Source: a virus. Taken from it: DNA of 28,860 nt. Each line of letters starts with the position of its first letter. Within the stretch, counting starts at the first letter, position 1. Both the position numbers and the translations under genes were made by a program. The stretch covers positions 1-28,860 of the IMG/VR virus record IMGVR_UViG_3300049794_000033. One strand, 5' to 3'. Shown here piece after piece: positions 2,204 to 28,860 of this stretch. The notes below the pieces were generated by a model. That model made no database searches. It was not told the DNA's origin and saw only the letters and a program-made list of their open reading frames with translations.

Positions 2204-4258
2204 TCATACGCGATAGAGGTCCCATAGATACGACAGCCACTTCGTGGCCTCGTCATCCGATAATATGTGGTCCACCCGAATATCGCGGGCTAGATTGCCA
2301 TCTAATTCCTGGCCGGCACTGGCCGTCCTGAAAAGTAGCGCCCCGGTCGTCCCCGTCTCTGTCGACTGTATGCCGCTGGCCCCCGTATTGACCGCGCGAT
2401 TCGCGTGGTTGATATTTATCAACGGCTGCGTGCCAGTTCCGCGCATCGTCTGAATTATCTCGAATGCAGCAGATGTGAGCGTCGGGTCCCATGAATTCGC
2501 CAAGAACACATTGTTCACTACGCCGTCCGAATAGATGTAGTGGACATTCGCCACCGTCAGCTCTTGAATCCCGCAGAAAAACCCGTCTTTGCGGTACTGG
2601 CAAATACCGCCGCCATTCCCGGTAACGCGCTCTCCGACGATGATTTCAGTGAACGCGGCGCCCGCCGTCCCGATATTGGACGCGCATTCGAGCCACTGAA
2701 TTGTCCCGCTCTGGTCAGCGCGCACAGCAGGCTTCCCGTTACGCCAATTGGATGTGAGCATCGGCCGGTTCGCAGAAACAGCTTGCGTGAAATGGTGCGC
2801 GCCGCTCGAAGCATCCGTCCACACGCCGGTGGTCGGATTGTAATTGAGCGCGTCCAAATCTTTCTCGATGCCAGTGAAGCTTGCGATGGTCTGGACTTCG
2901 GCAATTTTCGCGGCTGCAATCGAGGCCATGAGCGCATTGCCAAGTGCGTTCGGATGCACTCTATCTGGAAAATGTGAAGACGGCGCTGTATTTAAAATAG
3001 TATTTGCAGGGAAGTCTACGTATCCGTGGTATGCTCTGTCCGGATTGGCCTTGAGCATTGCATTCAACAGGCCGCGCTGGGTTTCAGCGGTAGGAGAGGC
3101 CAGCCAAAGCGCATCCTGGCGCCCCGTCACACCACATACGTAGACCTTGAAATTAGTGCCCTTCCAAACGGCTTTCTGAACATACGCCAAAATCAGCGCA
3201 TAGATGTCAACCGCCCCGCCGCCCGCGACGAGGTTGTTGGTTCCAATTAGGATTACTACGTAGTTTAATCCTCGTGCGGTTTCGAACAACGGCGCGCATT
3301 GCTTCGAATATCGGATGTTGCATGCGCCGGCATCGGTGCCGCCCAACCCGAGGTCCGCGATGTCCCATGTCGACGCACCCAACGTCTGCTGCACAAGATA
3401 CGGCCACGTGTCCGTGAACGAGCCGACGCCGCTGCCCTGCGTGATGGAATCGCCATCGAACACGATGCGATTCTTCGTCGACGCTGCGGCGAACGCGATG
3501 CTGTATTTGATTGCGATATGCGCGCGTGCACCGGCTGTTTCAGTCGCATCCAAATCATGGTCGTAGGCGACAATCATGTATATCTTACCGACGAATGGCG
3601 CGACCAATAGGGAGTCGCCGGCCCCCATGACCGACATGCCAGCCGTGCCTGAATCAGATGTCGACAGATCGACATTGATATTGACCTCACTATTCAGCGG
3701 CTGCTGCACACCGTTCACATTCAAGCGAGGAATGGTCGGGCCGGCGACGTAGCGAAATTCGAGCGCGGTCGCGGATGCCATTGCAAATGAGGGGTTGACT
3801 CTATTCTGCACCGACAACCCGTCGTGCGTACATTCTGTCAAATGCAAACCGGGGATAGGCGTCGCCTGCAAACAGAGAAAGGGCGACACCGTGCGGAACG
3901 TGATGAGCGCGCCACCAGCACCCGCCGTCTCGGCCACGATGATGACGGTACGCACGACACCCGACGCAAATAGAGATACCGCCGACTCAAGCCGCGTCGT
4001 CCCATCACCAACGAGTACCGGCAGACCATTGACTCCGATGCCGAGAGCAGGGCGCTTCGTGGGGTCGCTTTGGGCGACGCTGGTGACGATGCCCGCGCCT
4101 GACTGGTCGTCTAGTGATGAGACATTCCCCGAGCCGTCGGTATGTGTGGCCGAGGCGTCGGGCCGCAACAGCAGCACCATGCCCGTCGTCGGCAATGGCG
4201 GAGCGACTGCCGTATTTTGCCAATATGCCCAGACCCCCGCGCCACCAAGTCCGCTCAC
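2204..4258 (-). CDS. Tail spike/receptor-binding protein with SGNH esterase and two LamG-like domains
   Basis: A 684-residue protein with a central SGNH/GDSL hydrolase domain (about 262-452). Block I is GDSITQGSG with nucleophile S271; the block II glycine is at GG 306-307; block III is GTNN 339-342; block V is DRVHPN with D432 and H435. SGNH enzymes of this type deacetylate or de-esterify polysaccharides, so removal of acyl groups from host capsule or O-antigen during adsorption is inferred. Flanking regions (about 26-255 and 465-684) each show the concanavalin-like/LamG pattern 'DxSG...rP...nG.pav..dg' and end with 'LsddE...L' type helices. The start is GTG, overlapping the stop of the upstream structural gene (GTGA, 4255-4258); the first Met is residue 27 but would lose part of the first domain. 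It sits at the end of the tail operon, as receptor-binding genes often do. Confidence 0.85.
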   Translation of the reverse strand: MSGLGGAGVWAYWQNTAVAPPLPTTGMVLLLRPDASATHTDGSGNVSSLDDQSGAGIVTSVAQSDPTKRPALGIGVNGLPVLVGDGTTRLESAVSLFASGVVRTVIIVAETAGAGGALITFRTVSPFLCLQATPIPGLHLTECTHDGLSVQNRVNPSFAMASATALEFRYVAGPTIPRLNVNGVQQPLNSEVNINVDLSTSDSGTAGMSVMGAGDSLLVAPFVGKIYMIVAYDHDLDATETAGARAHIAIKYSIAFAAASTKNRIVFDGDSITQGSGVGSFTDTWPYLVQQTLGASTWDIADLGLGGTDAGACNIRYSKQCAPLFETARGLNYVVILIGTNNLVAGGGAVDIYALILAYVQKAVWKGTNFKVYVCGVTGRQDALWLASPTAETQRGLLNAMLKANPDRAYHGYVDFPANTILNTAPSSHFPDRVHPNALGNALMASIAAAKIAEVQTIASFTGIEKDLDALNYNPTTGVWTDASSGAHHFTQAVSANRPMLTSNWRNGKPAVRADQSGTIQWLECASNIGTAGAAFTEIIVGERVTGNGGGICQYRKDGFFCGIQELTVANVHYIYSDGVVNNVFLANSWDPTLTSAAFEIIQTMRGTGTQPLININHANRAVNTGASGIQSTETGTTGALLFRTASAGQELDGNLARDIRVDHILSDDEATKWLSYLWDLYRV

Positions 4259-5058
4259 AACAACCCCCGCAGCACATGCGCCTCATACGACCATGTCCGC
4301 GCCGTCGTATCTGGACTCGTTACCTGCAGTGAAATGCCCGCTCCACTGACGACCAGCGTTGGTGGCGTTGGGAATGTCGCGGCGCCCCCGCCAATCGTCT
4401 GCGAGAGAATCGTTCCGCTGATGGTGGCCACCGGGCCCGCCGCACCAAAATACAGCGCCGTGAACTTCCACGCAGCGATGGTCGTCGCGCCAGGCGAACC
4501 GACGTTGACTTCGAGAATGACGTCGACGGATGCAACCTCACCGACGGCGATGGTATAGAGGAGCGCAGTCGATGCCGCAGCAGTGCTCGTCGCTATGCTA
4601 CCCGTCGCCGTCTGCGGTTTTGATTTGGCGTCATTGCCCAGCACCGTCAACGTGGCGTTGTTGTTGACGACACCGGTAAACGTCGGATTGGCGAGGGATA
4701 GGGCGCCGGACTCCAAATAGTTGATGGCAGTAACTGAGCTGCCACTCGAGTCGGTGACAGTCACAACTAACCCGATGCCAGCGATGACACTGGCGTCATT
4801 AGACAGCGTCGACTGCGGAAATACGATTTGCCACCCGTTGTATTGTCCGGGCGCCCAACTGTATGTCAGTTGATGCAGACCCGGATACCCCGGTGCGAGC
4901 AGCGTCATCTCCGCGCGTTGGATTCCTTGCATGCTCTGTAGAGCGAATATCAGCGGATTGCCTGGAGTAAATAGTCCGATGGCGCCTGCTGCAACGTTGG
5001 TCGGAGCCGCTGCTCCGTCCTTGATGCTGATGAGCGCATTCGATGCAGTGAGGCCCAT
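4255..5058 (-). CDS. Virion structural protein, duplicated N-terminal domain (copy A)
   Basis: A 267-residue protein whose first ~118 residues clearly match the N-terminus of the 344-residue protein at 15222-16256. Shared blocks include IGLFTPG, FALQS, GIxRAE, YPGLHQ and (W/V)xPGQ. The remainder is different: an Ala/Thr-rich linker and a beta-sandwich-like C-terminal domain (about 165-267) that resembles the terminal domains of many phage spike or fibre proteins. GGGGAG precedes the ATG. It is placed between a spike-base-like protein and the SGNH spike, so an adaptor role linking spike to virion is inferred. No enzymatic motif is seen. Confidence 0.75.
   Translation of the reverse strand: MGLTASNALISIKDGAAAPTNVAAGAIGLFTPGNPLIFALQSMQGIQRAEMTLLAPGYPGLHQLTYSWAPGQYNGWQIVFPQSTLSNDASVIAGIGLVVTVTDSSGSSVTAINYLESGALSLANPTFTGVVNNNATLTVLGNDAKSKPQTATGSIATSTAAASTALLYTIAVGEVASVDVILEVNVGSPGATTIAAWKFTALYFGAAGPVATISGTILSQTIGGGAATFPTPPTLVVSGAGISLQVTSPDTTARTWSYEAHVLRGLL
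4705..5058 (-). repeat. Duplicated N-terminal protein domain, copy A
   Basis: This segment encodes residues 1-118 of the structural protein and is a diverged paralogue of the segment at 15900-16256. The similarity is easily seen in the protein sequence, including PGYPGLHQ versus PRYPGLHQ and TYSWAPGQ versus TFVWTPGQ, and not as DNA identity. This suggests an old duplication or independent acquisition of one module. Confidence 0.8.
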
Positions 5059-5086
5059 TTGAATCTATCTCCCCGGTGATTTGAAA

Positions 5087-5515
5087 TTATAACAACAGAA
5101 CGCCAGTGGCAGTGGTGCCGCTTTGGCGAACGACGGCGATGGCAAGCGGAAGAATGGTCCCCGCGAGCAACCCGCTCAACGTAGTATCGGCGGTATCGTC
5201 CGCGAGCCGCACGACTACCGCGCCAGTTGTCGCGACATAGAGCCAGCGACTGCATACCGAGAGCACCTGGTCACCTCCGCCAACACTTATAGCGACACCA
5301 GCGCGGGCTGCCTCACCGCTGGTGCGCAGGCGTCCGCGGCGGTCGACACGCATCATCGCTTGACGACCTTGACCACCGGACTTGGCATTCCCTAACCCAT
5401 TGGCCTGCGCCCACACATCTGGGCTCACGCCTGGCGCCGGGCCCGGCGCCGTAGCCGATGCCGCAGCCACATTCAATCCTTCACCATCGTAGCTACCCGA
5501 GATTCCCGCGCTCAT
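5087..5515 (-). CDS. Spike-base-like structural protein
   Basis: A 142-residue protein. The C-terminal ~60 residues (YVATTGAVVVRLADDT ... GTILPLAIAVVRQSGTTAT) match the pattern of the small spike-base protein known from the Rhodobacter capsulatus gene transfer agent (Rcc01079 family): beta strands, an A-G-T-I-L-P turn and an S/A-x-G-T-T-A-T ending. The N-terminal half is Gly/Ala/Pro-rich and probably extended. It lies directly upstream of copy A of the duplicated domain and the SGNH spike, which fits a spike-attachment role. The family call is by pattern recognition only and should be confirmed by profile search. Confidence 0.65.
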   Translation of the reverse strand: MSAGISGSYDGEGLNVAAASATAPGPAPGVSPDVWAQANGLGNAKSGGQGRQAMMRVDRRGRLRTSGEAARAGVAISVGGGDQVLSVCSRWLYVATTGAVVVRLADDTADTTLSGLLAGTILPLAIAVVRQSGTTATGVLLL

Positions 5516-8022
5516 GATTTCTTCTCCTGACTGCCCGACTCGAACATCCCGCCCATCATTGTAGCAAGTTTCAGCGGTTTTGAGCGGCTACCACGCTTGC
5601 CGCCGCCGGGTGGCGGAGGCCCTGGTTTCGGCGCCATCTGCGCATACATCTGTTGTTCTTGCTGAATCAAATCAGCTTGCAAACTCGGGTCTGTCGGCAT
5701 GTCGAATAGAATGCCGAGCCGCACCGCCGTCTGAAATGGGACGGGCGCGGACCGGCTGCTGCATTTGGCGAATACGCGCTGACGCGCCTCTTCGTAATAT
5801 GCCGGATAGACGCTCTTCATTGCGTCCGCTTCTTCGAGTGTACCGTGCCCTCGTAGCACGTCCCTCAAAATACCGTCGGGGCCTTTCTCCACTGCATCGA
5901 CACTGCGGAGAAACTCTGTCATCGCAGGCTTGCTGACAGGCGGCCTCACATTTGGAGTGAGCGTCGGGTTCGGGCCCGTATCGGTGTATCCCGGCGGGAG
6001 TTTCGTTCCGAGGTAGCGGACGGCCGCGGCGACCTTCTGATTTACCGCCGCAGCAATCTCCGGCGCATGTCCTTGTAGTGGCGCCGTCTGTTTACCCAGA
6101 TGTGATTTGACAGTTTCGGGCGCGGCGCTCAACGCCGCCACCCGTTTCGCTTCCTGCTCGAATCGGCCATGTGAAAAATCGCGCGGCTTCACCGGCGGGA
6201 GTTGCTCTGTAGAACCGCGCGCGAGCGCTGTATCGATTGCACCGTCAAGCCTCGCCATCGAACCGGCATGCATCTCGCTCAGACCACCAAATGTTCCAAG
6301 CTTGTCCAACAATACGGCGAGTGTAGCATTGCCGCGTTGTCGCATTTGGTGGTGCGCGGCGCCGAGGAGCATACCACCAATACCCCCCGCTAACACATGA
6401 CCACCCTCACCACCCAGCACTGCCCCGGTAAACCCTGCGCCGTAATCGGACGGCGACGCCATACGATTGCGAAGTTTCGCAGTAGCCGCGTCCGTCGCCA
6501 CATCGTTGATGAATCGCGTCTCGGAATAACGCGCCTTTGCGGCCAGGTAGTCTGCTTTCCACGTCTCGTTTCCAGCCTCTTTGGCAGCGCGCTCTCCGGC
6601 GTTCATGATGGTGTCCTCGATGGTGCGCCCCGCTGCTTTGCGCCCCTGAGCGAGCACCGTATCGGTGTTCCAGTTGATGGTCCGCTCCAACCCTCGCCGT
6701 TGTTCCAACAAGTCGCGAATGGGTATTTGGTAGTCCGCCAACGGCGTGCCCGTTGCCTCAAGACCAGCTTGCGCGCGTGGGCCATAGATGTCGGAAATCT
6801 CTCGCATCTTGTTGCGGATATCGGCGGCAGCAGGATGGTACCCCAATCGAGATTCGAACTGTTCGGCGCGTGCTTCGAGGGCGTTGAGTGCATCGCCAAT
6901 TCGGACGCCGCCGGCACCAACTTTCTCGACTGTCTCGGTCAATCCGTCGACTGCGGCGCTCTCCGCTTTTGCAGCCTTCGCGGCAATCTTCTCGATGTTG
7001 TCGCCGGCCTCGACGATGCCCTCCGAGCGTAATCTATTTGCGATTCGCCCCTGCGCATTCTCGCCGCCAAACCTGTCTCTCATCTGCTCCAAGAAACTTT
7101 TCTTATTTGCACTAATAGCGCGGATGTATTGCTCGTCCGCAGCAGCGCTCAATTTCCCATGACCGGGCAGCGCCTCACCGATTGCACTAAACGCTTTGCC
7201 GAGTAGCGGCTCGGCGCCCCCCAGCACACCGCCGAGTGCACCTGCAAGCAATGCCCCATGCCCCGCCGATGCCATGATGCCCTCAGCAGTCAGCTCCCGA
7301 TTCTGCAGTGTCGCCGCAGAAACCTCACTCCCCGACGAGAACAATCCACCTTCGACAATCGCGGTAGCCGCACCTTTGATGGCTTTCTGGCCGGCTCGTT
7401 TGAGCAATCCCTCAGCAGACGTCCCTACCAATTTGGTAGCGACTTCACCGGCAAATTTTCCCGCCCCACCGATGCCGCGCGGGATGCTCCCAAGAATATC
7501 CGCGATGCCCGCCTCATCGCCGAATACCATCGGGGCAACGGCACCGGCAATCTCTCCCGTTATCGCTGCACCGGGATTTACCTCTTGGTAATTGCGAAGA
7601 TGTTCGCGGACTCTCTCCGCTGTCTCGGTTCCCTTGAATAAACCAGCGGCTTCCACTGCCAGCGGGTCAGATAGCCCCGCAGTCAGTCCGCGGGCTGCAC
7701 CCTCGCCACCAGCAATCAATCCGCCAGTAAACCCACCGTATTCTTTTTCCAGCGCACGCTGGTGCGCCTCTTCCTCGCCGAGAAGCTTGTGGCCACCTTT
7801 GAGTGCTGCGGACGCTTGCTCGGCAGGGACGTCTTTGACAATGCCCGTCGCAGGGTCGGCCATTGGCACCGAACTCCCTCGCACCCATCCGAAACGACCG
7901 CTGGAAATGGCGGCATCAACATGCGCTGACGGCACATCGTGCAATGCACCATCGCGGTCCACGAGTTGGATAGTATTTGCGGGCGGAGTGAGCTCGCTGG
8001 TTGCTGGTTGCGGCCCGGGCAT
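5512..8022 (-). CDS. Large internal virion (DNA-ejection) protein
   Basis: An 836-residue protein. The N-terminus holds two copies of a ~30-residue motif (about 18-48 and 52-82) of the form 'D...G...DVPa....AA...G', known from other phage internal proteins. Several Gly/Ala-rich hydrophobic stretches with small-xxx-small spacing (about 97-115, 154-168, 251-283 and 527-557) look like glycine-zipper membrane-active helices, interspersed with long charged helices. Size, position after two other internal proteins and this composition fit an ejection protein that forms part of the conduit across the host envelope, like the gp14-gp16 set of T7-type phages. No transglycosylase motif was recognised. 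The ATG directly follows the TAA of the upstream gene. Confidence 0.7.
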   Translation of the reverse strand: MPGPQPATSELTPPANTIQLVDRDGALHDVPSAHVDAAISSGRFGWVRGSSVPMADPATGIVKDVPAEQASAALKGGHKLLGEEEAHQRALEKEYGGFTGGLIAGGEGAARGLTAGLSDPLAVEAAGLFKGTETAERVREHLRNYQEVNPGAAITGEIAGAVAPMVFGDEAGIADILGSIPRGIGGAGKFAGEVATKLVGTSAEGLLKRAGQKAIKGAATAIVEGGLFSSGSEVSAATLQNRELTAEGIMASAGHGALLAGALGGVLGGAEPLLGKAFSAIGEALPGHGKLSAAADEQYIRAISANKKSFLEQMRDRFGGENAQGRIANRLRSEGIVEAGDNIEKIAAKAAKAESAAVDGLTETVEKVGAGGVRIGDALNALEARAEQFESRLGYHPAAADIRNKMREISDIYGPRAQAGLEATGTPLADYQIPIRDLLEQRRGLERTINWNTDTVLAQGRKAAGRTIEDTIMNAGERAAKEAGNETWKADYLAAKARYSETRFINDVATDAATAKLRNRMASPSDYGAGFTGAVLGGEGGHVLAGGIGGMLLGAAHHQMRQRGNATLAVLLDKLGTFGGLSEMHAGSMARLDGAIDTALARGSTEQLPPVKPRDFSHGRFEQEAKRVAALSAAPETVKSHLGKQTAPLQGHAPEIAAAVNQKVAAAVRYLGTKLPPGYTDTGPNPTLTPNVRPPVSKPAMTEFLRSVDAVEKGPDGILRDVLRGHGTLEEADAMKSVYPAYYEEARQRVFAKCSSRSAPVPFQTAVRLGILFDMPTDPSLQADLIQQEQQMYAQMAPKPGPPPPGGGKRGSRSKPLKLATMMGGMFESGSQEKKS

Positions 8023-22353: not shown

Positions 22354-23756
22354 TGCACATTCTCCTCTTCCTCATCGCGGCACGCAAGCCGCTCAAGTTC
22401 CGCCGCCATTTCCGCAATCGCCTCCGGCGACCCCTTCGCGGGGCGCTCCTCTTTGGGCTGCTCATTGTAGGCGTTGCATGCGCGCCACCCATAGAGGACA
22501 CCGTCGCTTGCATGGTTCTTGAACCCCGGCGCCTCCTTCGCCCCATCGGCGGTCTTGGGCAATTCCAGCCACTCATCCACCAAATCTGTACAGCTACCAT
22601 CGGAGCACACCTTGATGGTCCCGCGCGCCAAGGCAGAATTGAGCAGACTCACATAGCCCATCTTGTTGGTCTTCTCGGCCGCTTCGATAGGCAGATGCCG
22701 GCGCTTACGTATCTCGGCCTGAAACAATTTCCCCATGCCGCCGACATCGCCCACAATCTTGACGAACTGATAAATCTTGTCGAGGTCTCGTACTTCGTCT
22801 GCCACATCGTCAGTCAACCCGGTGAGTCGATAGCTGCGCCGCACATAGATACATGGGTCATTGTCACGCCACCCAAGTACGTTGATGCTGTTCTGGTCGT
22901 TGACACCGAAATCCAACGCGCAAATATAGTATTGGAGAATCGGGATATCTTTCGCGGCAATATAATTCCGGTCCTCGGAAAATTGGCCATAAATCAAGCC
23001 GCCGCCATCTCGTACCCAAATACCATCTCGCAATTGCTGGCGGGTAATGGGGTCAAGAACATCGAGCGTCAGCATATACTCGCCGAGGTCCAGACTCGGA
23101 TTGTCTCGAGCCAACGCGGGCACGAAGGCGCCTTTGGCGCCGACCTCGACGAATCCGCGGCGCACCCAATCATGGCCGATGCCGCCAGGGTTGGCCGAGA
23201 ATCGAGCGCGGATAGGGACATTGGAGCCTGCGAGACGCCGCAGCCGTGATGTCAAATATCGAACGCGAGATTCAGGGAATTGGGTAGTTTCATCCACTGC
23301 CAAATACTGAATCTCCGCGCCCTGATACCGGTCCTTGTCATTCTCAGATTCAAGGTAGCCAAATGTAATGGTGGCCCCTGATGGGAACGTGAGCCGGCGG
23401 TCATCTTCATTCCATTTGATGCCGAATCGGTTCCGCCACCATTGCAATCCGCGGTCCATGATGGCGCCGGGGAGTGCTAAGTCCTTGTAAGTCTTACGGA
23501 TTATGAGGGCGGCGTAACCCGGCACATGAACATATTGTGCGGCGCCCATCAGGAGTGCGTCGCTCTTGCCTCCGCCCGCAGCACCCCCGAATAGCGCCTC
23601 GCGGTCCGTCAACCGAAGAAACTCCAGCTGCTTCGGATGCGGAAAATGCGGCACCATGTGCGCTGTCTCGCGCGGCATCAACCCGGATTCAATAAGCCGG
23701 CGTCGCCGAAGCTCGGCCACTGCGGCAAACGGAGTAATGGCGCGAGCGGCACTCAA
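22341..23756 (-). CDS. Terminase large subunit (packaging ATPase/nuclease)
   Basis: A 471-residue DNA-packaging motor. The ATPase domain has Walker A GGAAGGGKS (57-65), Walker B IQYLAVDE with D155/E156, and coupling motif FSANPGG (186-192). The nuclease domain has the expected acidic triad: D282 in ALDFGVND, D337 in IVGDVGG and D418 in HASDGV. It cuts concatemeric DNA and drives it through the portal. The start is unusual: TTG immediately after the TGA of the upstream 49-residue gene, with AAGAGG 6 nt ahead; the first ATG (residue 27, 23678) has no clear ribosome-binding site but would keep all motifs. Confidence 0.92.
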   Translation of the reverse strand: MSAARAITPFAAVAELRRRRLIESGLMPRETAHMVPHFPHPKQLEFLRLTDREALFGGAAGGGKSDALLMGAAQYVHVPGYAALIIRKTYKDLALPGAIMDRGLQWWRNRFGIKWNEDDRRLTFPSGATITFGYLESENDKDRYQGAEIQYLAVDETTQFPESRVRYLTSRLRRLAGSNVPIRARFSANPGGIGHDWVRRGFVEVGAKGAFVPALARDNPSLDLGEYMLTLDVLDPITRQQLRDGIWVRDGGGLIYGQFSEDRNYIAAKDIPILQYYICALDFGVNDQNSINVLGWRDNDPCIYVRRSYRLTGLTDDVADEVRDLDKIYQFVKIVGDVGGMGKLFQAEIRKRRHLPIEAAEKTNKMGYVSLLNSALARGTIKVCSDGSCTDLVDEWLELPKTADGAKEAPGFKNHASDGVLYGWRACNAYNEQPKEERPAKGSPEAIAEMAAELERLACRDEEEENVQWAV

Positions 23757-23906
23757 TCACGGCCTCTTCTTGCCCTTCGATTTCCTGCCTTTGCCAGCCT
23801 TGCTATATGCAATAGCAGCGGCCTGGTCTTTCGGGCGTCCCGCCTCAATCTCCGTTTTGATATTGGCGCCAATGACGCCTTTGCTACTACCTTTTTTGAG
23901 TGGCAT
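23757..23906 (-). CDS. Small basic phage protein (49 aa)
   Basis: A 49-residue ORF starting MPLKKGSSKGVIGANIKTE and ending in a Lys/Arg-rich tail (KGRKSKGKKRP). The pattern 'MPLkkGkSkk.is.Nik.Em.aGkp.kQAvAIAy' is common in very small phage proteins found near terminase and head genes; here AGRPKDQAAAIAYSKAG is plain. AAAGGG precedes the ATG. Its TGA directly abuts the TTG start of the large terminase, and its last codons contain that gene's AAGAGG ribosome-binding site. The function of the family is not established to my knowledge. Confidence 0.8.
   Translation of the reverse strand: MPLKKGSSKGVIGANIKTEIEAGRPKDQAAAIAYSKAGKGRKSKGKKRP
23763..23768 (-). promoter_or_regulatory. Ribosome-binding site deciding the TTG start of the large terminase
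   Basis: AAGAGG on the minus strand, 6 nt upstream of the TTG at 23756 and inside the end of the preceding small gene. No comparable site lies before the downstream in-frame ATG at 23678, so the TTG start is favoured. Confidence 0.55.
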
Positions 23907-23925
23907 TTGCGTGCCCTTTCGAGTT

Positions 23926-24315
23926 TCAGTTGCTCTTGTCGACGCCTTCCGGCGTCAATGTCTGTTCAAAATCCCGACCTTCGGAGAGGGCATCGGGCGC
24001 AAAAAACGCGAGCCGCGCCACGATGTCTGTCAGACGATTGCCGCTCCAACCGACCTTCTTGATGATGGTGCAGCTACTCTTCATTGTCTGATGCACCTGC
24101 ACCCACTCGCCAGTCACGACGCTCTGTTGCAGCCCGTCACACCGCGCCCAAATTTCCACCTCGTAATCCGTGTCATTCTCCAACCCATATGCAGATACCG
24201 GCACCTTGCAAATCATACATTTGGGCCAATTCGTCACGCCCCCCGCGACCGGGCGAGGGAGGACGATGCTCCCTTGTGGCCGATTTCGCCTGGCGAATTT
24301 GCGCATGAAGCTCAT
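23926..24315 (-). CDS. Cys-motif protein, zinc-binding candidate
   Basis: A 129-residue protein with CMIC (residues 33-36) and C59 in ARCDG, after a basic N-terminus. The block 'P.C..C..PV......N......EI.ARC.G' is reminiscent of small phage proteins with a treble-clef-like fold, where three cysteines and a His hold zinc; the fourth ligand here is not obvious (H75 or C82 possible). Coupled to the upstream gene by ATGA (24312-24315). Function unknown. Confidence 0.65.
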   Translation of the reverse strand: MSFMRKFARRNRPQGSIVLPRPVAGGVTNWPKCMICKVPVSAYGLENDTDYEVEIWARCDGLQQSVVTGEWVQVHQTMKSSCTIIKKVGWSGNRLTDIVARLAFFAPDALSEGRDFEQTLTPEGVDKSN

Positions 24316-24494
24316 GATTGCTCCTTGACGCCCATCGCACGAATGGCGGCAACGACGTCCCTCACAATCTGGTCAACCACCTGACCGAGCACCTCGGCAG
24401 CGCGCTCTTGCGCCATTGCGCCAAATGCCCCATCGCATCGCCTCTCGGCCTCGTGCAGTCGAGTGATGAGCGCGTCGTCAATTTCTATCTTCAT
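24312..24494 (-). CDS. Small helical protein
   Basis: A 60-residue protein predicted to be two helices. The ATG at 24494 (MKIEIDDALI) is chosen because it overlaps the stop of the upstream gene as ATGA; a longer in-frame start would run back into that gene. The opening 'MKIEIDD.L...L' followed by an amphipathic helix and VVDQIVRDVVAAI is typical of tiny phage proteins next to terminase genes, without known function. Confidence 0.6.
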   Translation of the reverse strand: MKIEIDDALITRLHEAERRCDGAFGAMAQERAAEVLGQVVDQIVRDVVAAIRAMGVKEQS

Positions 24495-24709
24495 GCTTTT
24501 GGCCACCCATCCGGCGCCGCTGCGCCCTCTCGTGTCGTCTGTTCGAGGCATAAGTCACATACCCCCGAAGCCCCTCGCGGCAGCCGTCGTGGGCACCATG
24601 CGCATTGAGCACGCCGCGCCCGCAGCACTTCGCGCCGCACCACGAGAATGCTCAATGGCGTTGCCGCGCCGAGGCAGAAAATGAGAATGACGAGCGCGAA
24701 GAAGCTCAT
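24491..24709 (-). CDS. Membrane-anchored small zinc-ribbon protein
   Basis: A 72-residue protein with one N-terminal hydrophobic segment (about 2-24, ALVILIFCLGAATPLSILVV), a basic stretch (RREVLRARR), and two CxxC pairs (C36/C39 CAWC and C51/C54 CDLC) spaced as in a zinc ribbon. The layout implies insertion in the inner membrane with the zinc knuckle in the cytoplasm. Coupled on both sides by ATGA overlaps. This combination is unusual for a gene lying between the small and large terminase genes; the role is unknown. Confidence 0.65.
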   Translation of the reverse strand: MSFFALVILIFCLGAATPLSILVVRREVLRARRAQCAWCPRRLPRGASGVCDLCLEQTTREGAAAPDGWPKA

Positions 24710-25011
24710 TTTCGGGCGGCACCGCTCTTCGCCCCATCGACAAAAGGCTTGCTGCCCTCAAGCGGCGTTTCCCTCATGGCGAGGACATTGCTCATGGGCA
24801 CTTTCTCCGGCATTCCGGCATTGTCCGGGTGGCCCACATAGACGTAGGCATCGTCATGCCAGAGATTGAAATGTTGCTTGCTGCTCAGACGATTGTTCGG
24901 CGCCGCCTGACTCACGACCGCCTTCTCGCGAGTGGGATATTGGTCTACCTCCCGCCCCGGCGCATTGATTGCCTCTTTAAATTCCACTCGGTCCAATTTG
25001 ATTTGACTCAC
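24706..25011 (-). CDS. Hypothetical protein
   Basis: A 101-residue protein starting at GTG with TAGGA upstream. It is polar, without cysteines or hydrophobic segments. The centre (HFNLWHDDAYVYVGHP) is predicted beta, and the C-terminus is basic (AKSGAARK). No family recognised. It overlaps the next gene by ATGA (24706-24709) and lies 6 nt after the small terminase gene. Confidence 0.6.
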   Translation of the reverse strand: MSQIKLDRVEFKEAINAPGREVDQYPTREKAVVSQAAPNNRLSSKQHFNLWHDDAYVYVGHPDNAGMPEKVPMSNVLAMRETPLEGSKPFVDGAKSGAARK

Positions 25012-25017
25012 GTCGTC

Positions 25018-25476
25018 CTACCCTATCTCTTTCTTACCCGCATTGTTCGCATTGCGTTTGAGCTCGGCTGCATCTTGGATGGCCTGCTCCAAATCGGCGA
25101 GCGGCACATCGTCGAGCGACTGCGAGTTTGCGGCCCGAGATTCAATCCGAGCCTTCTCGATAGCGGGGATGATGTCACCCCATCGCGCACGATTGCGGCG
25201 CTGCAGCCACCAGGCCAACCCCTGCCACCCTGGCTGCCCGGTCCGAATTTTCTCGACAACTTCGTCCTCCGCAATGGCCTCAGCCTCTCGTATCTGAATC
25301 GCAAATGCGATGTAATCGGGGTGGCCGGCCTTACCTTTGTGCAGCCAATCACCGAACGTCGAAGGGTTGACGCGCGCTAAGCGGCATGAATTTATCCGCG
25401 TATTGCCGCGCTTGAGCGCATCCACAATCCGGCGGATGACGAGGTCATTGAGGGCGGTAGGTCCGTTGGCGGGCAT
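25018..25476 (-). CDS. Terminase small subunit
   Basis: A 152-residue protein that should recognise phage DNA for packaging. It opens with a helix-turn-helix (about 12-45: 'RGNTRINSCRLARVNPSTFGDWL'), then a helix with 'FAIQIREAEAIAEDEVVEKI' and 'GLAWWLQRRNRARWGD', the 'A..wlLerr.p..W' block typical of phage small terminases, and a charged C-terminus. The ATG at 25476 lies 10 nt after the upstream stop but lacks a clear ribosome-binding site; an alternative TTG at 25512 (12 residues longer) has GAGGG just ahead but overlaps the upstream gene. Several tiny genes separate it from the large terminase. Confidence 0.8.
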   Translation of the reverse strand: MPANGPTALNDLVIRRIVDALKRGNTRINSCRLARVNPSTFGDWLHKGKAGHPDYIAFAIQIREAEAIAEDEVVEKIRTGQPGWQGLAWWLQRRNRARWGDIIPAIEKARIESRAANSQSLDDVPLADLEQAIQDAAELKRNANNAGKKEIG

Positions 25477-25486
25477 GATGTTTGAT

Positions 25487-25657
25487 TTAGCGCTTGCTCG
25501 CGGCGTATGCAATTTCCCTCACGTCAATGAGACGTCCGCTTGGGGAGCGGATGATGTCTTCGACCTCTTTGACGCGAGGGTCCTCGCAGCATGGCGTGGT
25601 GTGTTGCTGATGCGCCGCACACTCGCGCCCACAATTGAAGCACATGAACGCGTTCAT
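25487..25657 (-). CDS. Small Cys-motif protein (56 aa)
   Basis: A 56-residue ORF beginning MNAFMCFNCGREC, with C6, C9, C13 and a CC pair at 23-24, a plausible zinc knuckle, then a charged helical C-terminus. Its ATG overlaps the stop of the HTH-protein gene as ATGA (25654-25657), which supports it as real despite its length. Function unknown; it is one of several Cys-pair microproteins in this window. Confidence 0.7.
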   Translation of the reverse strand: MNAFMCFNCGRECAAHQQHTTPCCEDPRVKEVEDIIRSPSGRLIDVREIAYAASKR

Positions 25658-26169
25658 GCCTTCGGCGCCCCCTTCCTCGGTTTGCCGAGCCCAACCTGTT
25701 TGAAAAACTTGGCCTCGATTAAGTTCTTGACTTTATCGCCCGGTTTGAATGTGCCTTTCTCCAAATTGCACATATGAGGCTGCTTGATTCCGAAGAATGT
25801 TGCAAATTCTGCCTGCGTATAGCCGAGCTCCAAGCGCTTGGCGCGGACCATTTTGCCCCATTTTTTGGACCCGTCTCGACGCCGGTCTTCGGGCGCCCAA
25901 CCCTTGGGTCCACGATTAGATTTGGTGGACCTCGTCTTAGCCGGAGTCTTCATCTTCGGAGTCTTGCGCGGCCCGGCGCTGCGTCGCTTCAACGGCCGCT
26001 TGGCGGCCATCTTCTCAGCCCTCAACGCAGCACGCTTCTCACGCAGCGCCTTGTTTTTCCGGTCTCGTTTGACTTGCGCCTCGTCAATTTCACTTTCAAC
26101 AATCGGCAATATCCCCACTTGAAGCACTCCAGATTCAATCAACGCGTCCGCCATTTCTCCCAAATTCAT
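25654..26169 (-). CDS. XRE-family helix-turn-helix protein with long basic region
   Basis: A 171-residue protein. Residues ~105-150 form an XRE/Cro-type helix-turn-helix: 'MVRAKRLELGYTQAEFATFFGIKQPHMCNLEKGTFKPG', with the 'R...lg.tQ.efA...gi.q..is..E.G' signature. Residues ~33-100 are very rich in Lys, Arg and Pro and likely disordered and DNA-binding. The N-terminus (MNLGEMADALIESGVL) is a short helix. It overlaps the polymerase gene (ATGA, 26166-26169). A transcription regulator is likely; whether it acts on phage or host promoters is not visible. A His/Cys (HMC) replaces the usual serines in the recognition helix end. Confidence 0.8.
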   Translation of the reverse strand: MNLGEMADALIESGVLQVGILPIVESEIDEAQVKRDRKNKALREKRAALRAEKMAAKRPLKRRSAGPRKTPKMKTPAKTRSTKSNRGPKGWAPEDRRRDGSKKWGKMVRAKRLELGYTQAEFATFFGIKQPHMCNLEKGTFKPGDKVKNLIEAKFFKQVGLGKPRKGAPKA

Positions 26170-27701
26170 AAATCACTCCATCTATCTCCGCGCTTTAAAT
26201 CAATAGATAAAATAAGTTTTCCACCTGCAGTGTCAATAGGCCGAGCCCAAATTTCTGCAATCAACGATTGCGCCACATTTAGCATATTGTTGGGCACGTC
26301 ATAAATACAAGCATCGTGGACCTGCGCGACGAGGTGTGGGCCGATGGGACTTTTGCTCAGTTCGATGGTCCTCCGATTCACGATGTCGGCCAGGCCCGAC
26401 TGGATAGGATAGTTGGCCACATCGGTGATTTTGGGGAACCATCCCAACCAACGTATGCGACCCAGGAATGGTGTGCGCATAAATCCACATCGGCGGACTT
26501 GGGCGAGGTTGGCGTCGACCCATCGGTAGTACACGCGGTAAGCGGCATGGAGCTTGTCGAGGATAAGGCTCACGGCAGACATGCTCACATCGAACCCCTT
26601 CGACCGCAGCGTCATGTAGACTTTCTCCGCCTCCGCGCAATAGCTGATGGCGAATCCAAGGTTCTTCGCAATGTCGCGAAACTGCTTGCCGCGCGCGGCG
26701 TCTTTCTTCGCATCGCCGTCGAGCCATCCGCGCGCCGATATCTCTGGAAATACCGCCTTGGCATTGTTGGCATGCACATCTCCGGCGCATGCCGCGATAA
26801 AATTCGGGTCATTGCTCAAATATGCCGCAAGTTTCATCTCCGCCTGCCTCACGTCGTAGTAGATGAACGTATGCCCGGGCCGCGGAACGTAAATCTCGCG
26901 GACTCGCGCTTCCGGTGGCGGGCTTGGCTCGCCGATTGGATACCTCGGCACAGACTGAAACCGACAACTCAATCGACCAGAGACAGTCCCGAACGGCTTC
27001 CAGTTGAAGTGCGCGCGCGCCCCGCGCATGAAAACGCCTTTTTTCCCCGGCGCCCCAAGCGCATCCAAATAGGTGCTCTTGATTTTGCCGACCAGCCGCC
27101 ACGTGAGAAGCGCGGTCGCAAACTCCGCGTGCCGCGTATTGCCGCTCATCCGCAGTCCTTCGAGAGTCTCGTCGGCGGTCGACGCGGCGCCCTTTGGCGT
27201 CAATTTGACATATCGTGCCCCGAGGCTATGCGGGCTGAATAGATGGTACCGGACACTATCGAGCTTGCCGGGATTGAACAGCGGGTCGCCGACGATGTTT
27301 TGGAGTTCTCGTCGGAGGGCCTCGCGACGCACCGATAGAGACTCGGAAAGCTCTCGTTTTCTCTCGAGGTCGACGCCAATTCCGGTCCGCTGCATCTCGC
27401 GGCACACTGCCGCCAACTGCCGGTCATGCTCGTAGACAGCTCGCTCAGGCTGCAAATCGCCTTGCATTCGCTGCCACGCGAACATGGTGAGAATTGCATC
27501 ACTCGCATTGTATTTGCAGAGTGTGTCGCCATCGAGCTTATCCGGCGTCGTGCCCTTCTCATCCTCTGAACTACCTTTGAATATTTGCTTCCACGGCCTC
27601 GAGTCAGTGTAGCAACTAGCGACGTGATCGAGCCGCTGCGGAAGGTGGGATGCGAATGCGTGGTGAGCGAGCAAAGTGTCGTGACAATTCGCAAACTTCA
27701 T
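26166..27701 (-). CDS. Family-A DNA polymerase, C-terminal part with exonuclease motif III
   Basis: A 511-residue replicative polymerase fragment. Residues 1-80 are the end of a DnaQ-like 3'-5' exonuclease: CHDTLLAHHAF, then exo III KYNASDA (Y64, D68). Polymerase motif A is YYDVRQAEM (D283, E288); motif B has R342, K346, F350 and Y354 with E. coli Pol I spacing; NYPIQSGLAD is typical; motif C is VHDA (H462, D463), where most family members have HDE. F350 at the ribose-selecting position is the E. coli-type residue. Exo motifs I and II are missing here and lie in the UDG-exo gene upstream, separated by an 87-codon ORF, so the polymerase gene is split. The ATG overlaps that ORF's stop (ATGA, 27698-27701). 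Whether the pieces reassemble is unknown. Confidence 0.88.
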   Translation of the reverse strand: MKFANCHDTLLAHHAFASHLPQRLDHVASCYTDSRPWKQIFKGSSEDEKGTTPDKLDGDTLCKYNASDAILTMFAWQRMQGDLQPERAVYEHDRQLAAVCREMQRTGIGVDLERKRELSESLSVRREALRRELQNIVGDPLFNPGKLDSVRYHLFSPHSLGARYVKLTPKGAASTADETLEGLRMSGNTRHAEFATALLTWRLVGKIKSTYLDALGAPGKKGVFMRGARAHFNWKPFGTVSGRLSCRFQSVPRYPIGEPSPPPEARVREIYVPRPGHTFIYYDVRQAEMKLAAYLSNDPNFIAACAGDVHANNAKAVFPEISARGWLDGDAKKDAARGKQFRDIAKNLGFAISYCAEAEKVYMTLRSKGFDVSMSAVSLILDKLHAAYRVYYRWVDANLAQVRRCGFMRTPFLGRIRWLGWFPKITDVANYPIQSGLADIVNRRTIELSKSPIGPHLVAQVHDACIYDVPNNMLNVAQSLIAEIWARPIDTAGGKLILSIDLKRGDRWSDL

Positions 27702-27961
27702 CTGCTTAGTTGTCTCCGGCTCACCGCGAACACGGCTGATTTTGCCGCACCGTCAAGGGCACCATACAACGCCTGATTTGGACTCTGTTTGCTCCAAAAC
27801 CATACAGTGTACTTGCCCTTCATATTGGGGCATTTTTCGCGACACTGAACGGCGGCCAACCAGCCGCTCTTCTTCTCAACCCAACGCATACGAACACGCA
27901 CCTTTGAGCTGTCGACGGTGAAGTCTAGAGGGCTAGGGCCCCATATTTGCTCAATCACCAC
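27698..27961 (-). CDS. Unrecognised ORF at the break point of the split polymerase
   Basis: An 87-residue basic, Trp-rich protein (five Trp) starting at GTG (27961, or the adjacent GTG 27958). Predicted order: beta strand (VRVRMRWVEK), beta strand (GWLAAVQC), a CREKC pair, beta strand (KYTVWFW), then a helix (ALYGALDGAAKSAVFAVSRR). It overlaps the upstream UDG-exo gene by 7 nt and the downstream polymerase gene by 4 nt, so it is translated in line with both. It sits exactly where the exonuclease domain is interrupted. The three-strand-plus-helix layout loosely recalls AP2/integrase-type DNA-binding domains that accompany some homing enzymes, but no HNH, GIY-YIG or LAGLIDADG motif is seen; this resemblance is weak. 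Confidence 0.6.
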   Translation of the reverse strand: MVIEQIWGPSPLDFTVDSSKVRVRMRWVEKKSGWLAAVQCREKCPNMKGKYTVWFWSKQSPNQALYGALDGAAKSAVFAVSRRQLSR

Positions 27962-28860
27962 ACCACCCCATGATTCTCCAGTACCAGCAAATCAAAATTC
28001 TGCCCGTTGTGGAACACTACCTGCTCCAACCCCGCCAAATGTTTCGCCACCTCAGGCCCATACGCATCTCGCCACGGCCAAATTTCGACCACGTTCTGGA
28101 ACGAATCTGAGAATCCGATGCTCAAAATGTTACATTCCAACGGTTTGATGCCATTCGTTTCGATGTCGCAGGACACCGCACGAGGAAGCAGATGTTTTAG
28201 GACCTCGGGCCCGCCGACGTGGTAATTGCACTCGTCTTCGAACGGGGCTGTCGCCTCTCCGCGCACGATACGACCCGCGCGCCGAAAATCGAGCTCGGAA
28301 ATGGGTTTCCACGTGTCCGCCCTGAGCACGAAGGCAGGGTGGATGCTCGGTAGCACCAGTCGCATCGCCAAGGCCGCCCGGCCTCGCAGCGTGTCGCCGC
28401 GTAGAATGCCGCCCGTTTTGGACTTGAACGCAGCTTTGATGACCTTTTCGTCAATCTCGGGGGCCGACCAAATAAAACCACGTGCGACAAGAATGTTGCG
28501 CACGCCCAACACGGAGCGCATTGCAGTTTTGCCGAGCGCCACAATAGGCGCAGAACGCGGAAGGGCTGCGAGCTCCGTGAGCAGACGAGGAGCACAACAT
28601 TCCGCGGCACGTTCGTTGTCGTCATCACTCTCTCCGCGGCAAAGCGCCGCATTAGTCACATGGCAGTCACCCCGCGGGACTTTGGCATCTCGGCGGAGTC
28701 GCTCATCGAGAAACTTGCCGGAGAGTCCCACGAACGGCACACCAAGTTTCTCCTCGATGCGCCCCGGCCCCTCACCCACGATGACGAGTCGCACTCTGTT
28801 GGTAGCCGGAGTGGGCGGAACGACAACGGCCCCGGCGAGCGGGCAGATGTCGCACCGCGC
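27955..28860 (-). CDS. UDG family-4 domain fused to N-terminal half of a polymerase exonuclease (5' end outside window)
   Basis: The frame runs off the right edge; a GTG at 28794 is internal. Visible in order (numbered from that GTG): upstream CDIC-PLA, the N-terminal Fe-S cysteine pair of family-4 uracil-DNA glycosylases; GEGPGRIEE and PFVG (7-23), the active-site loop; C52 and C66/67, the other cluster ligands; SIHPAF (150-155), the HPA motif. Then a DnaQ-like exonuclease start: exo I CDIETNG (D210, E212) and exo II HNGQNFD (N263, D268), stopping about ten residues later at VVW. This order, UDG-like then exo then polymerase, is that of the phage SPO1 DNA polymerase. It should remove uracil or guide the polymerase; catalytic status is untested. 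Confidence 0.85.
   Translation of the reverse strand, partial: ARCDICPLAGAVVVPPTPATNRVRLVIVGEGPGRIEEKLGVPFVGLSGKFLDERLRRDAKVPRGDCHVTNAALCRGESDDDNERAAECCAPRLLTELAALPRSAPIVALGKTAMRSVLGVRNILVARGFIWSAPEIDEKVIKAAFKSKTGGILRGDTLRGRAALAMRLVLPSIHPAFVLRADTWKPISELDFRRAGRIVRGEATAPFEDECNYHVGGPEVLKHLLPRAVSCDIETNGIKPLECNILSIGFSDSFQNVVEIWPWRDAYGPEVAKHLAGLEQVVFHNGQNFDLLVLENHGVVW

Follow-up and report, generated by a model that had tools for sequence, protein, structure and literature searches.

A SPO1-type phage replicase gene divided between motifs II and III of its exonuclease into two cistrons that probably supply one proofreading site

SPO1-type phages encode uracil-DNA glycosylase (UDG), exonuclease and polymerase domains, in this order, in one gene. 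The right end of the IMG/VR virus record IMGVR_UViG_3300049794_000033 raises the question of how such a replicase is made when its coding sequence is divided inside the proofreading exonuclease. The window, i.e., the whole stretch of DNA analyzed, is the entire record of 28,860 bp, and the minus strand of its right end was found to hold three tightly packed open reading frames (ORFs), referred to here as chain 1, the cargo ORF, and chain 2. An earlier note on this DNA had proposed one gene that combines a UDG-like domain with motifs I and II of the exonuclease and, 250 bp on, a separate gene for motif III and the polymerase; both ORFs and all motifs were found as claimed, and the ORF of 86–87 aa in the gap had been overlooked. 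We consider it highly probable that this SPO1-type replicase is made as two translationally coupled chains, which assemble one proofreading site. The locus is composed of the following features; relatives, which were gathered by scans of viral contigs, carry L numbers.

27955–28860, minus strand: chain 1, family-4 UDG domain and N-terminal half of the 3'-5' exonuclease with motifs I and II (Pfam, phrog_17, AlphaFold2, Foldseek)
28150–28167, minus strand: exonuclease motif I, DIETNG, with Klenow D355 and E357 (alignment to E. coli Pol I)
27991–28011, minus strand: exonuclease motif II, HNGQNFD, with Klenow D424 (alignment to E. coli Pol I)
27955–27961, minus strand: the break, where the W-TGA stop of chain 1 overlaps the GTG start(s) of the cargo ORF (sequence)
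27698–27961 (start at 27961 or 27958), minus strand: cargo ORF, 86–87 aa, no assigned function (open frame in the 253-bp gap)
27698–27701, minus strand: ATGA, the cargo stop overlapping the polymerase start (sequence; kept in L003, L004, L005, and L008)
26166–27701, minus strand: chain 2, C-terminal exonuclease half with motif III and family-A polymerase (Pfam, phrog_17, catalytic residues)
27495–27515, minus strand: exonuclease motif III, KYNASDA, with Klenow Y497 and D501 (alignment to E. coli Pol I)

Chain 1 begins ~9 codons beyond the end of the window, the gene being complete in L002, and its product ends with HNGQNFDLLVLENHGVVW directly before the stop codon. A family-4-like UDG domain is present at its N terminus, as deduced from the Pfam UDG match (2.4e-19) and from TIGR00758 (3.5e-19, which is under the whole-protein cut-off of that model). 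Foldseek matched the chain 1 model to family-4 UDGs (4zbx, 4e-10) and, across UDG and exonuclease, to the intact phiLo polymerase (9qhs). Chain 2 starts with MKFANCHDTLLAHH and was assigned to DNA_pol_A (PF00476, 4.1e-33); motifs A, B, and C as well as all polymerase catalytic residues (D283, E288, R342, K346, F350, Y354, H462, and D463) are present. The DnaQ-type exonuclease motifs I, II, and III, with all catalytic residues, are likewise present, but spread over the two chains. Domain order, family-4 UDG, and exonuclease and polymerase motifs therefore agree with those of the SPO1-type enzymes (phrog_17; vir526; phiLo polymerase, PDB 9qhs), and intact homologues of this type fall in the same tree as the window proteins. 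However, the SPO1-type domains reside in one polypeptide encoded by one gene, whereas the window distributes them over two cistrons, the cut being placed inside the exonuclease fold.

Within phrog_17 (DNA polymerase), chain 1 covers positions 603–749 and chain 2 positions 754–1230, and therefore nothing is missing between them. Alignment to the intact relative L024 revealed that the last W of chain 1 and the first M of chain 2 share one position, so that the halves abut with no residue gap and their joining restores the exonuclease domain, as the earlier note had predicted. When aligned with E. coli Pol I, chain 1 runs to Klenow residue ~435 and chain 2 sets in at ~436, which places the break in the loop that follows the helix behind motif II and precedes the DTLLAHH segment. 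Chain 1 thus contains three of the five catalytic exonuclease residues (D355, E357, and D424) and chain 2 the other two (Y497 and D501); every aligned sequence, including the window, L025, and Caulobacter phage Kuura, conserves all five. One active site is indeed divided over two polypeptides, and it can probably work only when both proteins meet.

Nine contigs besides the window, originating from several metagenomes, carry the same break (L002, L003, L004, L005, L008, L025, L105, L106, and L108); the stretches of L106 and L108 are identical and were obtained from two metagenome datasets. In about 29 relatives carrying the C-terminal exonuclease part (L024 and others among L078–L104, L109, and L110), both exonuclease parts are encoded in one ORF, relative to which the coding region of the window is divided; since intact single-ORF relatives exist, one ancestral UDG-exonuclease-polymerase gene was broken, in line with the previous proposal. 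L024, for example, encodes 1231 aa in one ORF, of which 318 residues form an intein within the polymerase domain. Among the close relatives of the split clade of the window, none encodes the whole exonuclease in either of the two proteins. L110 was found to contain a probable single-base frameshift error at about position 5186, just ahead of motif III. In a tree of 36 sequences, the window clade was grouped with L025 (support 100/99), and L105/L106 were placed with the intact L083, L102, and L103 (99/97). This placement among intact relatives forces at least two split/intact changes at this loop.

The DNA between the halves varies considerably. In the window clade, the site is filled by four unrelated ORFs of 86 (window, L002), 29 (L003, L005), 56 (L008), and 81 codons (L004), the 29-codon cargo representing a hydrophobic peptide and the 56-codon cargo being Cys-rich. 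The inserts measure 82–253 bp. Each of these ORFs starts in the chain 1 stop (TG-GTGA) and ends in the polymerase start (ATGA); in the window, the cargo ORF accordingly overlaps both neighbors by 4 bp (GTGA and ATGA, respectively). The chance of four unrelated inserts being open in the required frame was estimated by shuffling, with the frame requirement included, at ~5e-8. A fifth cargo, in L105 (102–104 aa), starts with ATGA at the chain 1 stop and ends with ATGA at the polymerase, and all five unrelated cargoes hence begin in an RTGA of the chain 1 stop and finish in the ATGA of the polymerase. L106 and L108 are split without an insert, the halves being joined only by a TGATG overlap, and share ~88% identity with the cargo-bearing L105 in the polymerase gene; L025 is also split without an insert, its halves overlapping by 17 nt.

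Regarding the identity of the cargoes, the window ORF had no match in Pfam, PHROGs, or NCBIfam and was detected among the viral contigs only in the near-identical L002; a scan of genome contigs yielded one remote match (L027, 24%). Among the cargoes searched against these three databases, only that of L105 gave a strong match (phrog_18063, 1.2e-22, a family without assigned function), and none of those tested matched an endonuclease. The site was also considered as a unique insertion hotspot, which was rejected, as insertions of varying length occur at ~5 of the 22 conserved junctions.

These observations can be combined into a partly inferred course of events. The replicase is permanently encoded as two polypeptides, chain 1 providing the UDG domain with D355, E357, and D424, and chain 2 providing Y497 and D501 together with thumb, palm, and fingers. 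The 4-bp stop/start overlaps suggest that both cistrons are probably produced by termination-reinitiation, and the two parts of the exonuclease fold probably bring the chains together again as a single polymerase with proofreading. The earlier note had regarded one ancestral gene as interrupted and had pointed to replicase splits by inserted DNA in T4-related phages. While the break itself is real, the insert is probably not its cause: two split lineages have no insert, one of them being 88% identical to an occupied sibling, and the inserts differ between relatives, so that the break probably preceded the cargo. It would most likely have arisen as an insert-free stop/start overlap, the state seen in L106 and L025, and unrelated small cistrons would have entered later, exactly between stop and start. 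It may be speculated that the recurrent entry exactly at RTGA overlaps reflects insertion via such overlaps.

Evidence from conservation and structure prediction is consistent with chains that meet. Conservation is generally highest in the exonuclease piece of chain 2, which shows 77–90% identity within the window clade and generally surpasses the polymerase domain, and the ratio of nonsynonymous to synonymous substitutions (dN/dS) was ~0.1 in both halves where computable, indicating that both are under strong purifying selection. AlphaFold2 modeled chain 1 alone with a mean predicted local distance difference test (pLDDT) value of 85.7, its last helix (residues 287–296) ending just before the break. 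For chain 2 alone, the polymerase part was modeled confidently and residues 1–80 poorly (pLDDT ~36–61); as these residues are nevertheless highly conserved, the simplest inference is that the N terminus of chain 2 folds onto chain 1. Several points weigh against the two-chain replicase. The evidence for it consists of sequence data and single-chain models only, and every case split at this loop (Klenow 435|436) is a metagenomic contig. Furthermore, the dN/dS value of ~0.1 is rough, since synonymous sites were saturated in several comparisons, and the low pLDDT of residues 1–80 may stem from a shallow alignment of 11 sequences. Finally, the two changes required by the tree may mean that this loop was broken twice, or that a single break was followed by re-fusion or by transfer of the split allele.

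Several other explanations were weighed. Contigs of this kind do contain single-base frameshifts, L110 apparently being an example, but a sequencing or assembly artifact as the source of the split is next to impossible in the window: it was rejected because the same break recurs in nine further contigs from several metagenomes, among them the identical L106 and L108 from two datasets, with different inserts having precise ends. A fused polymerase produced from both ORFs by an intron, a split intein, ribosomal bypass, or a programmed frameshift must be regarded as very unlikely. Phage polymerase genes do carry introns and inteins, the latter also in relatives of this very gene (L024, L103, and L105), and the residues at the joint match the intact protein without a gap. 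However, with the gathering thresholds of Rfam, no self-splicing intron was matched in the window or in any of four relatives, the shortest insert (82 bp) is too small for one, and each insert is an ORF ending at the polymerase start. The chain ends (HGVVW before the stop and MKFANC) show no extra domain belonging to a split intein, as judged by inspection and Pfam, no dedicated intein search having been made. Bypass or a programmed frameshift would call for a fixed frame relation between the chains, which instead differs among relatives (modulo 3, it is 1 in the window, L025, and L105, and 2 in L106), and in L106, no DNA besides the TGATG overlap is present between the halves.

Polymerases of family A without exonuclease activity are common, and chain 2 by itself holds all polymerase motifs; the exonuclease could thus be dead, with only the polymerase chain being of importance and chain 1 being retained for its UDG domain. 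This is improbable, given that the window, L025, and Kuura retain all five catalytic residues on both sides of the division, that the exonuclease pieces have the low dN/dS described above, and that the chain 2 piece generally exceeds the polymerase domain in conservation. A homing endonuclease may also have made the break upon insertion, its gene later decaying or giving way to the cargoes seen today. For such a course, precedents exist in nrdA of phage Aeh1 with mobE and gene 43 of phage 25 with a seg-like gene (PMC2988022), and the inserts are located exactly between the halves. It appears unlikely, though, as no tested cargo ORF matches an endonuclease, splits without insert occur (L025, L106/L108), and L105 and L106/L108 differ in the presence of cargo at ~88% identity. 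Doubtful as well, and only to be entertained tentatively, is the idea of an adaptive break, with chain 2 alone synthesizing DNA in the absence of proofreading, and with chain 1, in a ratio set by the stop/start coupling and the cargo, docking to complete the exonuclease; if true, these phages would, in trans, adjust proofreading and uracil removal or separate them from synthesis.

The two-chain SPO1-type replicase joins other phage replication enzymes in pieces. In T4-type phages, gene 43A/43B of Aeromonas phages 25 and 44RR and nrdA of Aeh1 are divided, and the halves of such split enzymes co-purify or stay active (PMC2988022). These genes likewise represent replication enzymes in two ORFs, divided by or around inserted DNA. 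However, 43A/43B is a family-B polymerase, and the T4-type gap holds an endonuclease gene or an untranslated spacer, whereas the break studied here has five unrelated small ORFs, none of them recognizable as an endonuclease, in addition to uninserted splits. In the OM43 phages MEP401 and MEP402, a family-A polymerase is likewise spread over two ORFs, which flank a small ORF without assigned function (PMC10580990); their cut lies inside the polymerase domain and leaves the exonuclease domain whole, in contrast to the window. Phage replicases in pieces are therefore already known, but a conserved cut that separates exonuclease motif II from motif III appears to be undescribed: we found none in a literature search that took in only a minority of subscription journals. 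The finding predicts a proofreading active site that is completed between two chains, at a conserved break in a loop with at least two apparent split/intact changes that five unrelated cargo genes have entered.

Related divisions were also observed at other sites in the family. In the isolated Caulobacter phage Kuura (L065, OQ067476.1, 4950–8354), the exonuclease is divided between Kuura_029 and Kuura_026, and the gene for UDG and motifs I/II is likewise set apart from the motif III-polymerase gene, with two small ORFs between them. In contrast to the window, the cut is placed at Klenow ~480|481, 45 residues further on, and the phage falls into another clade (B, 100/100). Annotation misses the halves of split polymerases, as the UDG-exonuclease half of Kuura (Kuura_029) was deposited as a hypothetical protein, and the consulted passages of the Kuura genome paper make no mention of a split gene (PMC9959647). 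L012 and L013 have the Kuura-type split (Klenow ~480|481) and fall in the same 100/100 clade; their intervening DNA is larger (L012, 7134–8474; L013, 7011–7863) and contains ORFs resembling cysteine protease and MazG-type proteins.

The SPO1-type gene is broken at the exonuclease/polymerase boundary in ctLwi270; in L062 (MW202554.1, 1727–4364), the gap at this domain boundary measures 151 bp and holds a Cys-rich ORF resembling an NrdR-like zinc ribbon. In Vibrio phage VS-ABTNL-3 (L067, MF497422.1, 3956–7090), the cut lies inside the polymerase domain around PVS_28 (phrog_8380, no assigned function). L078 and L079, which are identical over the polymerase gene, possess an intact exonuclease and a polymerase broken just before the palm, near the thumb/palm join (around 5599–5642), where YIDSQVLDV and a stop are followed by an ATG-overlapping ORF. 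Inteins in the polymerase domain were found in L105 (polymerase ORF 4956–7610) and L103 (ORF 3804–7568) at one common site near the domain end, and in L024 (ORF 3806–7501) at motif A; L106, although close to L105, has none.

Downstream of the polymerase, the start of one further gene overlaps the polymerase stop by 4 bp.

25654–26169, minus strand: gene for a helix-turn-helix protein (PHROG transcriptional regulator matches)

Elsewhere in the window, the minus strand encodes a 684-aa protein with a GDSL lipase/acylhydrolase domain (2207–4258; Pfam, 2.4e-16). Moreover, other junctions near the terminase genes (23756–25512 in the window, and in relatives) vary in length, which suggests further turnover of small genes.
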